Made by a program: the position numbers and the translations under genes. DNA of 64,000 bases, from NCBI RefSeq assembly GCF_002285795.1, contig NZ_CP022961.1, positions 4,406,001 to 4,470,000 of the forward strand, given 5' to 3'. Below are positions 37,735 to 42,545 of the stretch, in pieces. Every line of letters starts with the position of its first letter. The first letter of the stretch is position 1. Below the pieces are notes generated by a model that saw nothing but the letters and a program-made list of their open reading frames with translations, was not told the origin of the DNA and made no database searches. Source of the DNA: Plantactinospora sp. KBS50. GTDB lineage: Bacteria; Actinomycetota; Actinomycetes; Mycobacteriales; Micromonosporaceae.

Positions 37735-39132
37735 TCAGCTCCCGTCTCCTGTCGCCGCGCCACCCTCCGGCTCATCCGTCCGGCTTACCGGTTCGATACC
37801 GGTCGCTGCGTCAAGTCGGCCGATCGCCACCAACGCCGCACCGGTCGCACCAATCTCCGAGGTGCTGGCCCGCCACACCTCGCGGGGCGACAGGGTCTGC
37901 GCGAACGAGCGCCGCCACCAGGCCGACGCGGTCATCGCGCCGCCGCCGAGCACGACCCGGACCCGCTTCTGCACCGTCGACTCGATGTCGTCGAGGCTCA
38001 CCGCCACCTGCCGGCACAGCGCGCTCATCAGGCCGGCGACGATGTCCACGGCGCCGGAGCTGAAGTCCAGCCCGGCCAGTTGACCCGACCCGGCCGGGGC
38101 CAGCCCGGGCGGACGGTCCCCGCCGAAGCGCGGGTCGGCCCGCACCCCGCCGCCGGGCGAGACGGCCTCCAGCGCCTCGTCGAGATCCTCGCCCGTGGGC
38201 AGTCGCAACACCCGGTCGGCCCAGGCGAACAGGTTGCCGCCGCCGGAGAACGCGGCTCCGGTCACGATGTGTCCGTGGTCGACCCGGTAGCGCCAGAGCG
38301 AGGGCGGCAGCGGCGGCAGCGGCTCGCCCGCGGGCGCCGGCTGCACCAGCCGGACGGCCGCCGAGGTGCCGACGGTGACCGCGGCCCAGTCCGGATCCAC
38401 GGCCCGGCAGCCCACGTTGGAGGCGGCGCCGTCGCCGACCGGCGGCGCCCACGGCGCGTCCCGCAGCGCCGGCCACCGCCGCGCGTGCTCCGGCCGCAGC
38501 CGCCCCCGCCAGCCGTGCGGCGCCAGCTCCGGCAGCTCGCCGGCCCGCACCTGGGCCAGCTCGCACGCCTCCCCGTCCCAACCCATCGACCGCAGGTCCA
38601 GCAGCCCGGTCGCGGACGCCTGGGAGACGGACATCGGCGCGCAGTCCAGCAACATGCCGAGGATGTACTCCGCCAGGCCGCCGAACCGGACCCCCGGACA
38701 GTCCACCCGCTCCCGCAGCCAGGGCAGCCGCACGTTCCAGTAGAACCGGTGCCACCAGGTCCCGGTCCGGTGGTGGAAGGCGGTCGGGTCGCTCGGCACG
38801 GGCGCGCCGGGCAGCGGCTCCGGTCGGGTGTCCAGCCAGGTCAGCACCGGACCCAGCGGTTCACCCGCCGGGTTCAGCGGCACCACCGAGTGCCACTGGG
38901 CGGCGGTGGTCACCAGCTCGACGTCCTCCAGCCAACCCGCCGCCGCCAGCTCGTCCAGGCACTCCAGCAGGGCCGACAGGAACTCCGGGCCGTCGATGGT
39001 GGCCGTGCCGTCGGCGCCCAGGGCGAGGCGGACCGGCCGGCGGGCCAGGGCGCCGGGCAGCGGCACGGCGTCCGCGTCAAGCACCAGGCCACGCACCGAC
39101 GAGGTGCCCAGGTCGAGAGACAAAATGGTCAT
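37735..39132 (-). CDS. FGGY-family carbohydrate kinase
   Basis: A 465-residue sugar kinase of the xylulokinase/gluconokinase/glycerol-kinase superfamily. The N-terminal phosphate loop is ILSLDLGTSSVRGLVLDAD, the mid segments AWHS-type QWHSVVPLN and TWLDTRP, and the C-terminal adenosine motif LGGGAMTASAWWRRSFAQ with the Gly-rich ATGAALVAIG. Substrate is not determinable from sequence; gluconate or a pentulose are the usual options. It is divergent from the anthranilate synthase gene, with the trp leader in the gap. Confidence 0.88.
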   Translation of the reverse strand: MTILSLDLGTSSVRGLVLDADAVPLPGALARRPVRLALGADGTATIDGPEFLSALLECLDELAAAGWLEDVELVTTAAQWHSVVPLNPAGEPLGPVLTWLDTRPEPLPGAPVPSDPTAFHHRTGTWWHRFYWNVRLPWLRERVDCPGVRFGGLAEYILGMLLDCAPMSVSQASATGLLDLRSMGWDGEACELAQVRAGELPELAPHGWRGRLRPEHARRWPALRDAPWAPPVGDGAASNVGCRAVDPDWAAVTVGTSAAVRLVQPAPAGEPLPPLPPSLWRYRVDHGHIVTGAAFSGGGNLFAWADRVLRLPTGEDLDEALEAVSPGGGVRADPRFGGDRPPGLAPAGSGQLAGLDFSSGAVDIVAGLMSALCRQVAVSLDDIESTVQKRVRVVLGGGAMTASAWWRRSFAQTLSPREVWRASTSEIGATGAALVAIGRLDAATGIEPVSRTDEPEGGAATGDGS

Positions 39133-39235
39133 CCCGGCACACCGTACCCGGCAGGACGGTCGCGTACGTCCCGTCTCCGGAGCCGGATCACGCCGGGGGT
39201 CACACCGGACGCCCCGGTCGGCGTATTGTCGCGGC

Positions 39236-39295
39236 ATGTCCGCGCGCCTGTCCCTCTGGTGGCCCACCCGACCGGTGGCCCCCGACAGCGCGTAA
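39236..39295 (+). CDS. Trp leader peptide with tandem Trp codons
   Basis: A 19-codon ORF reading M-S-A-R-L-S-L-W-W-P-T-R-P-V-A-P-D-S-A, ending TAA. Two adjacent TGG codons and a following terminator-like hairpin are the classical layout of ribosome-mediated transcription attenuation by tryptophan. It lies 89 bp before the anthranilate synthase gene on the same strand. The leader itself has no function other than regulation. Confidence 0.75.
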   Translation: MSARLSLWWPTRPVAPDSA

Positions 39296-39303
39296 TCCGC
39301 CCA

Positions 39304-39328
39304 GCTGGCCGCCTTCCCGGTGGCCAGC
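39304..39328 (+). terminator. Attenuator hairpin of the anthranilate synthase leader
   Basis: GCTGGCCGCC pairs with GGTGGCCAGC (one G-U) around the loop TTCCC, followed by CCCGTTTCCC. The TGGTGGCC of the Trp codons can pair with GGCCACCA near 39349-39356, and a GGTGGCC at 39274-39280 can pair with GGCCGCC in the terminator stem. These give the alternative structures expected of an attenuator. Confidence 0.65.
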
Positions 39329-39384
39329 CCCGTTTCCCGCGTACGGCGGCCACCACAGCCGGCCGACGAGTCCGAGGAAACGTC

Positions 39385-41456
39385 ATGCACCTGAGTGAAC
39401 TGCCGGCGCTGGTCGCCGCCGGCGTCGACCCCGGTCCCTTCGCGCTGCTGCACCGCGCCGAGGAACCGGACCTGGAAATCATCACCGGTCCGGTCCGTAC
39501 CGTGGGCCGGCTCGCCGACCTGCCGGCGGACGGCCCGGAACCGGCGGACGGCCCGGCACCGGCGCCCGGTCCGCGCACCCTGGCCGTCGTGCCGTACCGG
39601 CAGATCGCCGAACGCGGCTTCGCGCACATCGACGACGGCGTGCCGATGGAGGCGCTGACGGTCACCGGGTACGCCCGGATGCCGCTGTCCGAGGCGGTCG
39701 CCGCGCTGCCGGACACGCCCGTGCTCGCCCGCGACGGCCGATTCGACATTCCGGACGAGGCGTACGCGGAGATCGTCCGCGAGGTGCTCGCCGAGGAGAT
39801 CGGCCGGGGCGAGGGGGCGAACTTCGTCGTGCACCGGGTCTTCGAGGCCACCCTCGACCAGCCGCCGCTGCTCGCCGCGCTCGCCGCGCTGCGCCGGCTG
39901 CTGGTGGACGAGCGGGGCGCCTACTGGACGCACCTGGTCTACACCGGGTCCCGCATCCTGGTCGGGGCCAGCCCGGAACGGCACGTCAGCGTCGCCGACG
40001 GGCTGGTGCTGATGAACCCGATCAGCGGCACCTTCCGGCACCGCGGTGTCGGGGTCGACGAGGCCGCCCTGCTGCGCTTCCTCGCCGACGACAAGGAGAT
40101 CGACGAGCTGGACATGGTGCTCGACGAGGAACTGAAGATGATGGCCGCGGTGGCCGACCGCGGTGGCCAGGTCGTCGGGCCGTACCTGAAGGAGATGTCC
40201 CGGCTGGCGCACACCGAGTACCTGCTGGCCGGGCACGGCCGGTTGGACGTCCGGGAGGTGCTGCGGCGCACCATGTTCGCCCCCACCCTGACCGGCAGCC
40301 CGATCGAGAACGCCTGCCGGGTGATCGCCCGGCGGGAGCCGCACGGCCGGCGGTACTACGGGGCGTGCTGGCGCTGCTGGGCCGGGACGGGGCCGGCCGG
40401 CAGACCCTGGACGCCCCGATCCTGATCCGCACCGCCGAGATCGGGCCGGACGGCTCGCTGCGGGTTCCGGTGGGCGCCACCCTGGTCCGGCACTCCACCC
40501 CGGAAGGCGAGGTGGACGAGACGCACGTCAAGGCCGCCGGGATTCTCTCGGCGCTCGGCCTGGCCAGCGGGGGTGCGCCGGGCACCGTACCGGCGTCCGC
40601 GCCCGGCGGCGCCGTACCGGAACCGGCCGGCGCCCAGCCCGGCGGCGCCGAACCGGGCGGCGCCGAACCCGGCGGCGCCGAACCCGGCGGGACCGCCGGG
40701 GAGCCCAGGCCGGCGGCGCCGCGCCTGGCCGAGCTGCCGGCGGTACGGGCGGCGCTGGCCGCCCGGGCGGAACGGCTGGCCCGGTTCTGGCGGGAACAGC
40801 GCGACCCGGACCGGCCGGCGGTGCCGGCGCTGGCCGACCGGACGGCGCTGATCGTCGACGGCGAGGACACCTTCACGGCGATGCTCGCGCACCAGCTCCG
40901 CTCGCTCGGCCTGCGGGTGCGGGTCGAGCCGTGGCACGCCGTGCCGGCGGACGTGCCCGGCGCGGACCTGGTGGTGCTCGGACCCGGCCCGGGCGACCCG
41001 ACCAGCACCGGGGACGACAAGATGGTCGCGCTGCGCCGGGTCGCGCGCGGGCTGCTGGCCGCCGGCCGGCCCACCCTGGCGGTGTGCCTGGGTCACCAGT
41101 TGCTCTGCGGGCTGCTCGGGTTGCCGCTGCACCGGCGGGACACCGCGTACCAGGGCCTGCAACGGGTGGTCGAGCTGTTCGGGGTGCGCCGCCGGGTCGG
41201 CTTCTACTCGACCTACACGGCGTTGGCCGGCACCGACCGGCTGGACACGCCGTACGGTTCGGTCGCGGTCGCCCGGGAGGAGAGCGACGGTGCCGTCCAC
41301 GCGATCCGCGGGCCGGGTTTCGCCGGTGTGCAGTTCCATCCGGAGTCGGTGCTCAGCGCGGACGGGCTGGCCGTGCTCACCGACCTCGTCAGCGAACTGC
41401 TCCCCGCGCCGGTACCGGTGGCCGATCCGGTGATTAGCCGGCGCGCGGGCGGGTAG
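39385..41456 (+). CDS. Anthranilate synthase, fused TrpE-TrpG/PhzE type (frameshifted in this sequence)
   Basis: A fused chorismate-to-anthranilate (or aminodeoxyisochorismate) enzyme of about 690 residues. The chorismate-binding half carries NPISGTFRHRG, DELDMVLDEELKMMA, VVGPYLKEMSRLAHTEY and LTGSPIENACRVI, very like PhzE. A Gly/Glu/Pro linker follows, then a class I glutamine amidotransferase with AVCLGHQLLCG (Cys) and GVQFHPES (His, Glu). The frame breaks after RRYYG near 40360: a run of four G instead of five. One added G gives GRRYYGGVLALLGRDG. The Trp-Trp leader suggests a role linked to tryptophan rather than phenazines; no phz genes are nearby. GAGGAAA precedes the ATG. Confidence 0.88.
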
Positions 41457-41707: not shown

Positions 41708-42328
41708 TCAGCCGGCCGCCCGGCCGCGGCGCAGGACCTCGGCGACCTGTACGGCCCGCCGCGCGGTCAGCGCGGTCGCACCGAGCGCCACCGAGTCGGG
41801 CGCCGTCTCGCCGTTGTTGCTGGTGTGCGAGCCGCCGTACGGGTTGCCCGCGACGAACTGGCTGGGGTCGGTGTAACCGGGCGTCACCACGATCCCGCCC
41901 CAGTGATAGAACACGTTGAACATCGACAGCAGGGTGGCCTCCTGGCCGCCGTGCGCCGTGGCGGTGGAGCAGAATCCGGCGTACACCTTGTCGGCCAGCA
42001 GTCCCTGCGACCAGAGCGGCCCGCTGGTGTCGATGAACTGCTTCAGCTGGGCGGCCATCACGCCGTACCGGGTGGGCGTACCGAAGATCACCACGTCGGC
42101 CCAGGAGAGGTCGTCGAGTTCCACCTCCGGCACGTCCTGGGTCTCCAGGCGGTGCGCCTGCCAGCCCGAGTTCGACCGGATCGCCTCCTCCGGCGCCAGC
42201 TCGCGCACCTTGCGCAGACGTACCTCGGCGCCGGCCTCCTCGGCGGCCTGGGCTGCCTCCACGGCCATCTGGTAGGTGATGCCGGTGGCGCTGTAGTACA
42301 CCACCGCGACCTTGGTGCGGCCCTGCAT
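41708..42328 (-). CDS. wrbA: NAD(P)H:quinone oxidoreductase, WrbA type
   Basis: A 206-residue flavodoxin-like FMN enzyme that reduces quinones by two electrons, limiting redox cycling. Seen motifs are VAVVYYSATGITYQMA (FMN phosphate loop), VIFGTPTRYGVMAAQLKQFID (WrbA signature), STATAHGGQEATLLSMF and TPGYTDPSQF. AGGGGGAGG precedes the ATG. It is a single gene between terminator repeats and a divergent methyltransferase. Confidence 0.95.
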   Translation of the reverse strand: MQGRTKVAVVYYSATGITYQMAVEAAQAAEEAGAEVRLRKVRELAPEEAIRSNSGWQAHRLETQDVPEVELDDLSWADVVIFGTPTRYGVMAAQLKQFIDTSGPLWSQGLLADKVYAGFCSTATAHGGQEATLLSMFNVFYHWGGIVVTPGYTDPSQFVAGNPYGGSHTSNNGETAPDSVALGATALTARRAVQVAEVLRRGRAAG

Positions 42329-42545
42329 GGGCCTCCCCCTTCCGTCGGACCGATGCCGGCGCGGAGGGCTACCCGCCGCCGGATCCGGCAAACCTCGCGG
42401 AAGGGGACCGCAAATCGGATCGACGGTCGGGTGCCGGGCCGATAGCGTGACCCGCACGTCTGAGTCGGAGGTGGTTCTGTGCCCGTCGTCCCCGCGTCTC
42501 TCGGCCTGCCCATCATCCGAACTTCCGACGTGAGGACACCCAGAC

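Follow-up and report, generated by a model that had tools for sequence, protein, structure and literature searches.

A putative TrpL1-type tryptophan attenuator with a candidate ribosome-binding-site lock before a fused PhzE-type enzyme gene in Plantactinospora sp. KBS50

Introduction

In Plantactinospora sp. KBS50, a short open reading frame with two adjacent tryptophan codons precedes the gene of a fused PhzE-type enzyme. Does tryptophan control this gene, and if so, at which step of its expression? We addressed the question in a stretch of 64,000 nucleotides (the window; contig NZ_CP022961.1, positions 4,406,001 to 4,470,000) of a genome that consists of one contig and is 99.99% complete. 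Our best explanation, to which we assign a probability of about 0.78, is a ribosome-mediated tryptophan attenuator that is homologous to the TrpL1 leader of Streptomyces and stands before a fused PhzE-type anthranilate synthase.

Results

Leader peptide and promoter

The features at the start of the locus are the following.

39224-39229, + strand: -10 promoter box TATTGT, 6 nt before the leader ATG (TAnnnT in relatives at fixed spacing)
39236-39295, + strand: leader peptide ORF of 19 codons, MSARLSLWWPTRPVAPDSA, with ATG at 39236 and TAA at 39293-39295 (ORF reading; conserved leader in relatives)
39257-39262, + strand: adjacent Trp codons TGG TGG, presumed stall site (79 of the best 80 of 549 relatives)

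The relatives compared were the best 80 of 549 sequences that match the first part of the enzyme. A Trp-Trp leader lies at the same place in 79 of these 80, and by eye most of the peptides resemble MLAHLTCWWPADPAAxPRA. The one exception among the best 80 of 549 is Pseudofrankia sp. BMG5.36 (L021), whose leader reads TGG CGG and has one Trp left. At positions 2857-2862 of that sequence the second Trp codon is the Arg codon CGG and the RNA segments are kept, which makes it a natural single-Trp leader. The Trp-Trp leader is also found in all 17 further orthologues, which come from same-family genomes. The ORF ends directly after WW-x-A in 8 of these 17 and the downstream RNA segments are retained there, which suggests that the RNA and the Trp codons are under selection and the remainder of the peptide is not. 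We accordingly rejected the idea that the peptide is selected beyond WW-x-A.

In all 98 rows with upstream sequence, a TAnnnT box precedes the leader start by 6 or 7 nt, against a shuffled expectation of 1.4/98; L091/L014, L095/L007, and L104/L078 look like the same genomes, making the rows partly non-independent, L078 and L104 were left out at contig ends, and no row is Streptomyces-like (a label inferred from the peptide match to published TrpL1 or TrpL2). The box is readable in 17/17 further orthologues too. According to the available text of PMC8079986, S. lividans has TAnnnT as its -10 motif, on average 6.3 nt away from the transcript start, and its TrpL1 is reported to be leaderless. Given the box 6-7 nt upstream in 98/98 rows, the mRNA of our leader is probably leaderless as well, with a predicted start at or adjoining 39236.

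Pairing segments of the leader RNA

Five segments of the leader RNA matter for the folding.

39264-39268, + strand: segment 1, CCACC, which pairs with segment 2 (1:2 paired in 99.1% of cells, 46 sequences)
39274-39280, + strand: segment 2, GGTGGCC, which pairs with segment 1 or with segment 3 (antiterminator; 2:3 paired in 98.8%)
39304-39313, + strand: segment 3, GCTGGCCGCC, 5' arm of the 3:4 hairpin (helix counts; covariance model R1)
39319-39328, + strand: segment 4, GGTGGCCAGC, 3' arm of the 3:4 hairpin (two pairs changed on both sides, in the window)
39348-39354, + strand: segment 5, GGCCACC, complementary to segments 2 and 4 in the window (sequence complementarity, pairing probabilities); GGCCGCC in many relatives

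The original prediction described a 19-codon ORF with two adjacent TGG codons, followed by a 10-bp hairpin with a short T run, and alternative pairings with the Trp codon region. The ORF, the hairpin (GCTGGCCGCC / GGTGGCCAGC, 10 bp, loop TTCCC), and the alternative pairings (1:2, 2:3, and 3:4) are all found in the window. The T run is there as TTT at 39333-39335; it amounts to just three T, four bases past the stem, which makes the hairpin a poor intrinsic terminator by itself, short of a proper U-tract. Folding of 39220-39400 was better than that of shuffled sequences (z -2.62), and 1 of 200 shuffles was as good. The prediction had also staked itself on conservation in relatives, where leader, hairpins, and promoter box are indeed kept.

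Among 46 aligned sequences, the cells of helices 1:2, 2:3, and 3:4 are paired in 99.1%, 98.8%, and 88.9%, compared with 18-70% for slid versions, counts that derive from similar sequences. The 3:4 core is retained in all 46, and the antiterminator and terminator helices, which exclude each other, can both form in nearly all of them. Shuffles reached the covariation score of 1:2 in 10/500 cases, of 2:3 in 500/500, and of 3:4 in 0/500. Changes on both sides of a helix affect one pair in 1:2 and two pairs in 3:4, all located in the window. The changed pair of 1:2 is A-U there and G-C in the other sequences, and both halves of this change alter the leader peptide (Ala to Thr, Ala to Val), a further sign that the RNA is what is selected. 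Helix 2:3 has no two-sided change in the 46 sequences, nor does its covariation exceed that of its shuffles. RNAalifold favours 2:3 plus an outer helix on the alignment, with a covariation term of almost nil (-0.32). The case for the helices is thus conservation plus a few compensatory changes.

Segment 2 lies 17 nt from the first codon of the Trp pair in 112 of the 121 distinct loci; the leader stop codon is offset from the same codon by 12-15, 24-27, or 36-39. With the usual footprint, a ribosome at the Trp codons would cover segment 1 and keep segment 2 free; from each of the stop positions, a terminating ribosome would reach over at least part of segment 2. This spacing looks like textbook attenuator geometry. 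The stretch after the stem has a mean T count of 2.48 of 9 in 89 Micromonospora-like sequences, and good U-runs occur in some Actinoplanes-like ones. The locus would thus work like an attenuator, in which termination at 3:4 is putative.

Relation to Streptomyces TrpL1

The covariance model R1 was made from 44 sequences of Micromonosporaceae and Frankiaceae, without Streptomyces leaders. In the own genome, a single copy is convincing (E 1e-10, the next at E 0.07). Among 346 genomes of the phylum, nine gave matches with an E of at most 0.001 under stricter filters. Besides the own genome, the nine comprise another member of its family and seven genomes that belong to a single genus of a different family. 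The window copy scores 63.2 bits, compared with 82.7 bits for the other same-family copy. All seven other-family genomes carry TrpL1-type leaders (E 5e-9 to 1e-7) with the motif WWWTA.PAA; that of L114, for example, reads MFAHSTQNWWWTAHPAAH, and published S. lividans TrpL1 reads MFAHSTRNWWWTAHPAAH. The gene behind each of the seven is of the fused PhzE type and 53-55% identical to the first part of the window enzyme. We conclude from these matches that the window leader likely shares ancestry with the Streptomyces TrpL1 leader.

Three of the seven genomes gave second R1 hits, and the two that were read (L119 and L120) have MTTRTCTQLWWAA before a trpS-like gene starting MKRVFSG.KPT. Published TrpL2 of S. 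lividans likewise precedes trpS (available text of PMC8079986). The trpS-like leaders of L119 and L120 have two Trp codons, whereas published S. lividans TrpL2 (MMTRTCTQLWRAA) has one. A search of 38900-39600 with the Rfam families, Trp_leader included, returned two matches at E of 10 or less, both to unrelated sRNA families and far below gathering scores.

A segment complementary to the Shine-Dalgarno site

The place where a terminator would have its U-tract is occupied by a segment whose sequence complements the enzyme gene's Shine-Dalgarno site.

39331-39337, + strand: anti-Shine-Dalgarno segment CGTTTCC at the terminator U-tract position, containing TTT 39333-39335 (covariation with the Shine-Dalgarno site)
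39376-39382, + strand: Shine-Dalgarno region GGAAACG of the enzyme gene (complementary to 39331-39337)

The two sites change together in relatives: GTCGTTCC occurs with GGAACGAC in L078, GGTTCTCC with GGAGAACC in L011, GTCCTT with AAGGAC in L007, and CGTTCC with GGAACG in L003. We compared the duplex energy of matched and mismatched species against a null in which the columns of the first segment were permuted alike in all sequences, preserving relatedness and composition. For 47 sequences thinned by similarity, one trpS leader among them, the gap was -2.79 kcal/mol, compared with -0.31 ± 0.35 in the null (0/200). Other thinnings gave -2.62 for 57 sequences (0/200) and -2.25 for 94 (0/60). When a 12-base segment was slid from -60 to +30 in 46 sequences, the gap was -1.1 to -2.5 at 0 to +9 past segment 4, with its peak at +3 and +6 (-2.48 and -2.09), and lay between -0.74 and +0.32 elsewhere. 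A separate set of 15 sequences outside the main test, with L123 and L125 left out, showed a gap of -2.08 (1/500).

Folds with at least five pairs between the segment and the Shine-Dalgarno site were found in 83/89 Micromonospora-like, 2/6 Actinoplanes-like, 1/7 Streptomyces-like TrpL1-type, and 2/2 trpS-type sequences. At the 5% level, 68 Micromonospora-like sequences went beyond their own shuffles and none of the Actinoplanes-like, Streptomyces-like, or trpS-type did, in a grouping made partly after the fact, the Actinoplanes-like group having been picked once its U-runs were seen. The mean T count of 9 was 2.48 in Micromonospora-like sequences versus 4.67 in Actinoplanes-like and 3.86 in Streptomyces-like ones. 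The rank correlation between U-run and Shine-Dalgarno hairpin was -0.35 over 119 sequences, a comparison in which the starts of L123 and L125 are misplaced, and 0.00 in the 17 new orthologues. The hairpin is present in 5 of 11 sequences with a U-run and in 90 of 108 without one. It also occurs in 9 of the 17 new orthologues, some of which have a U-run too, and L128 and L132 have both together. A clean swap of U-runs for the Shine-Dalgarno hairpin was rejected on the zero correlation in the 17 and on these double cases.

The weak U-tract and, at the same place, a segment covarying with the Shine-Dalgarno site point to a second element that would hide the ribosome-binding site. The data suggest that the segment is a lock on this site, and perhaps a shift to translational control. 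No description of the segment was found in the searchable literature, a body that leaves outside most subscription papers and the 2015 actinobacterial survey (cited in PMC4833913). In L146 (positions 330-500), a sequence outside the statistics, which has a three-Trp leader, a very long complement was noticed by eye that joins the region past the hairpin to the Shine-Dalgarno site (CGTTCCTTCCT with AGGAAGGAACG).

Shine-Dalgarno exposure and the ribosome position

Equilibrium folding of 94 relatives gave a Shine-Dalgarno exposure of 0.246 with the ribosome stalled and 0.250 with the ribosome at the stop codon, the stalled value being higher in 48 of the 94. The seven Streptomyces-like sequences gave 0.228 versus 0.236. 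A few single relatives deviate in either direction, and the window itself has 0.66 when stalled and 0.34 at the stop, by pairing of segment 2 with 39348-39354. Freeing segment 4 rather than using it up raised the exposure from 0.272 to 0.307 over 95 sequences including the window (more than 0.05 higher in 18, lower in 3). We rejected a tryptophan-dependent exposure at equilibrium as a property of the group, on the values of the 94 relatives. Co-transcriptional kinetics could differ from equilibrium folding.

Pairing of segments 4 and 5 has a mean probability of 0.77 in 88 Micromonospora-like sequences versus 0.71 for shuffled loops; 66 of the 88 lie above their own shuffled mean and 12 reach the 10% level. 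It is stronger in seven Streptomyces-like (0.97 vs 0.60) and six Actinoplanes-like sequences (0.91 vs 0.66). As a general ON structure, segment 5 with segment 4 was rejected for its weakness outside the window (0.77 vs 0.71).

The downstream enzyme

The enzyme gene is read in two frames.

39385-40347, + strand: putative fused PhzE-type anthranilate synthase, chorismate-binding part, first frame (Pfam Chorismate_bind 3e-18)
40348-40364, + strand: one-base reading-frame change (L001 alignment; most relatives read through in one frame)
40365-41456, + strand: rest of the chorismate-binding part and class-I glutamine amidotransferase, second frame (Pfam GATase 2e-24)

The chorismate-binding part and the class-I glutamine amidotransferase are fused, in two frames in the window. 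Relative to the protein of orthologue L001, the window encodes residues up to 322 in frame 3 and those from 323 onward in frame 2. A full-length alignment in a single frame was obtained for 76 of the best 80 of 549 relatives, and a programmed frameshift was set aside for this reason. Among the other four, L008, L017, and L055 end early in short stretches, and L049 changes frame. The enzyme gene of L049 (Micromonospora tarensis) no longer keeps to a single frame beyond residue 406 of the L001 enzyme. The frame break of the window may be a mutation or a sequencing error. Neither this break nor the segment that pairs with the Shine-Dalgarno site figures in the original prediction. As the enzyme frame is broken here, the window copy of the leader may control a dying gene.

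The original prediction took the enzyme to be PhzE-like and read the tryptophan leader as a sign of anthranilate or tryptophan metabolism, or of a Trp-responsive secondary pathway. The likeness of the enzyme to PhzE is borne out by orthologue L001, which as a query against solved structures hits PhzE (3r74) at E 3e-176 and the next chain at 3e-21. Three other chorismate-binding enzymes are encoded in the own genome: a separate complete TrpE (L081, over the NF010086 cut-off), a PabA-PabB-type fusion (L082), and L083, an isochorismate synthase that scores above the TIGR00543 cut-off. A tree was made of 40 fragments, without TrpE and PabB rows, and one supported clade (96/89) of 25 rows in it includes the window, the Frankiaceae, and the Streptomyces-like sequences. 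The leader is present in 25/25 rows inside this clade and in 0/15 outside, the latter being paralogues of 49-57% identity, and it thus marks one enzyme clade in this sample. L146 had been taken for a paralogue by its identity; the tree and its own leader place it inside the leader clade.

The S. venezuelae gene of Lin 1998 and that of Ashenafi 2015 are said to be the same. Secondary accounts, in their available text, place an anthranilate synthase gene of S. venezuelae under the control of a trp attenuator (Lin 1998, as cited by PMC1262725 and PMC4833913), and they call the fused protein of that species an anthranilate synthase (Ashenafi 2015, as cited by PMC5958127, PMC5897657, and PMC5036795). 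Protein sequence does not tell ADIC synthases from anthranilate synthases (available text of PMC5958127). The clade shared with TrpL1-type Streptomyces-like genes and the cited S. venezuelae work support the tryptophan reading of the original prediction, and we take the enzyme as a putative tryptophan-linked anthranilate synthase.

Within the sequence stretches examined around each enzyme gene, two neighbours recur. A divergent FGGY-type sugar kinase lies at 37735-39132 (- strand), and 71 of the best 80 of 549 relatives have a kinase match next to their enzyme gene. Downstream, at 41708-42418 (- strand), there is a WrbA-type oxidoreductase, and 53 of the same 80 relatives show a WrbA match.

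Discussion

The locus contains a leader, a promoter box, alternative segments, a few compensatory changes, and an anti-Shine-Dalgarno segment that covaries with its target. Stalling, termination, a response to tryptophan, and a coupling of the 3:4 hairpin to the Shine-Dalgarno hairpin are what we infer for its operation. Transcription would begin at or adjoining the leader AUG, and the first ribosome would load on a leaderless mRNA. If charged tRNA-Trp is scarce, the ribosome would stall on the two UGG codons and cover segment 1; segment 2 would then be free to pair with segment 3, no 3:4 hairpin would form, and the enzyme gene would be expressed. If tryptophan is plentiful, the ribosome would reach the stop codon and overlap segment 2, the 3:4 hairpin would form, and expression would fall. 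The second element would hide the ribosome-binding site, and in the OFF state it may act together with 3:4. As a tentative extension, which we hold to be somewhat unlikely, the trp attenuator of Micromonosporaceae and Frankiaceae may have been rewired, the U-tract being replaced by the anti-Shine-Dalgarno segment, such that the ribosome on the Trp codons would govern the start of enzyme translation, either by itself or jointly with termination.

How the two hairpins share the work is where other explanations compete. It is quite conceivable, if short of probable, that the locus is an ordinary transcription attenuator and that a constant Shine-Dalgarno hairpin sets basal translation or mRNA stability without sensing tryptophan. 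The 3:4 hairpin with a U-run in some Actinoplanes-like and Streptomyces-like members speaks for it, as does the equilibrium exposure of the Shine-Dalgarno site, about equal in both ribosome states; the short U-tract of the window speaks against it, and an unrelated element would be odd exactly at the U-tract position. We doubt the opposite possibility of a purely translational attenuator, with no useful termination at 3:4 and access to the Shine-Dalgarno site decided by the leader ribosome. The U-tract is weak in most Micromonospora-like sequences, the anti-Shine-Dalgarno covariation is strong and localised, and in the window the predicted exposure rises on stalling through 2:5 pairing. But the 3:4 core is retained in 46/46 aligned sequences, to which the window adds compensatory changes, the relatives as a group show no change of equilibrium exposure on stalling, 4:5 pairing is scarcely above shuffles (0.77 vs 0.71), and some sequences (L128 and L132) have both the U-run and the Shine-Dalgarno hairpin.

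The remaining explanations deny a working attenuator in this genome. A clade-conserved leader may be decaying here along with its frame-broken enzyme, a reading to which the one-base frame change, the R1 score of 63.2 versus 82.7 bits for the other same-family copy, and the separate complete TrpE (L081) lend weight. We consider it improbable: three of the differences that the window shows in its leader helices are compensated, a pattern not expected from decay, and the frame break may be a sequencing error. The probability is negligible that a short two-Trp ORF and G+C-rich hairpins have met by chance in a G+C-rich region. Such hairpins are common at 72% G+C (39200-39400), and model matches in the own genome go down to E 0.07, but just one copy there is convincing (E 1e-10), the leader recurs in 79 of the best 80 of 549 relatives (the last keeps one Trp) and in 17/17 further orthologues, and the promoter box is found in 98/98 rows. 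The conservation of the leader refutes the chance reading.

We therefore retain the attenuator homologous to TrpL1 as the preferred reading. It would extend the TrpL1-type attenuator to a large actinomycete group, and the leader would serve as a sequence flag that separates the tryptophan-linked anthranilate synthase from its look-alike relatives. If the Shine-Dalgarno segment senses tryptophan, the family would be a natural series from a termination switch to a translation switch; if it does not, the segment is still a conserved part of these mRNAs. Should the rewiring be true, related species would show a transcription switch becoming a translation switch in one homologous RNA, with the intermediates visible.

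T-boxes are RNAs that bind tRNA. The translation-acting T-boxes of actinobacterial ileS genes resemble the window in combining an amino-acid sensor with a Shine-Dalgarno-sequestering hairpin as output (available text of PMC1262725), and they differ from it in having no leader peptide. The trpE leader of Bacillus subtilis is also alike, with transcription attenuation and a hairpin that hides the trpE ribosome-binding site; that hairpin is driven by the TRAP protein, whereas the window has a leader peptide with Trp codons (available text of PMC12288461). PhzE, an ADIC synthase (PDB 3r74), shares with the enzyme the fused chorismate-binding and amidotransferase parts (E 3e-176 with L001). The tryptophan-regulated Streptomyces homologue, by contrast, is described second-hand, in the text available, as an anthranilate synthase.

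The closest systems are the actinobacterial trp attenuators. Those of Seliverstov et al. 2005 are alike in their two or three UGG codons and the triples gGCC-rGCy-GGCC; all their terminators are followed by poly-U, whereas the window has UUU only (available text of PMC1262725). Neither the word Micromonospora nor Frankia occurs in the main text of that paper, as far as this text is available (PMC1262725). The trpE leader TrpL1 of S. lividans, MFAHSTRNWWWTAHPAAH, has a run of Trp codons and is reported leaderless, and the Streptomyces-like R1 loci have the same segments 2, 3, and 4 and a fused anthranilate synthase downstream. TrpL1 has three Trp codons and the window two, the stop codon usually comes later here, and the uridine-enriched stretch of published TrpL1 contrasts with the poor U-tract after 3:4 in the window (available text of PMC8079986). 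The Shine-Dalgarno-pairing helix is found in 83/89 Micromonospora-like sequences versus 1/7 Streptomyces-like TrpL1-type ones. The core of the leader is of an already known actinobacterial kind, and what sets it apart is the lineage-specific segment that would pair with the Shine-Dalgarno site.
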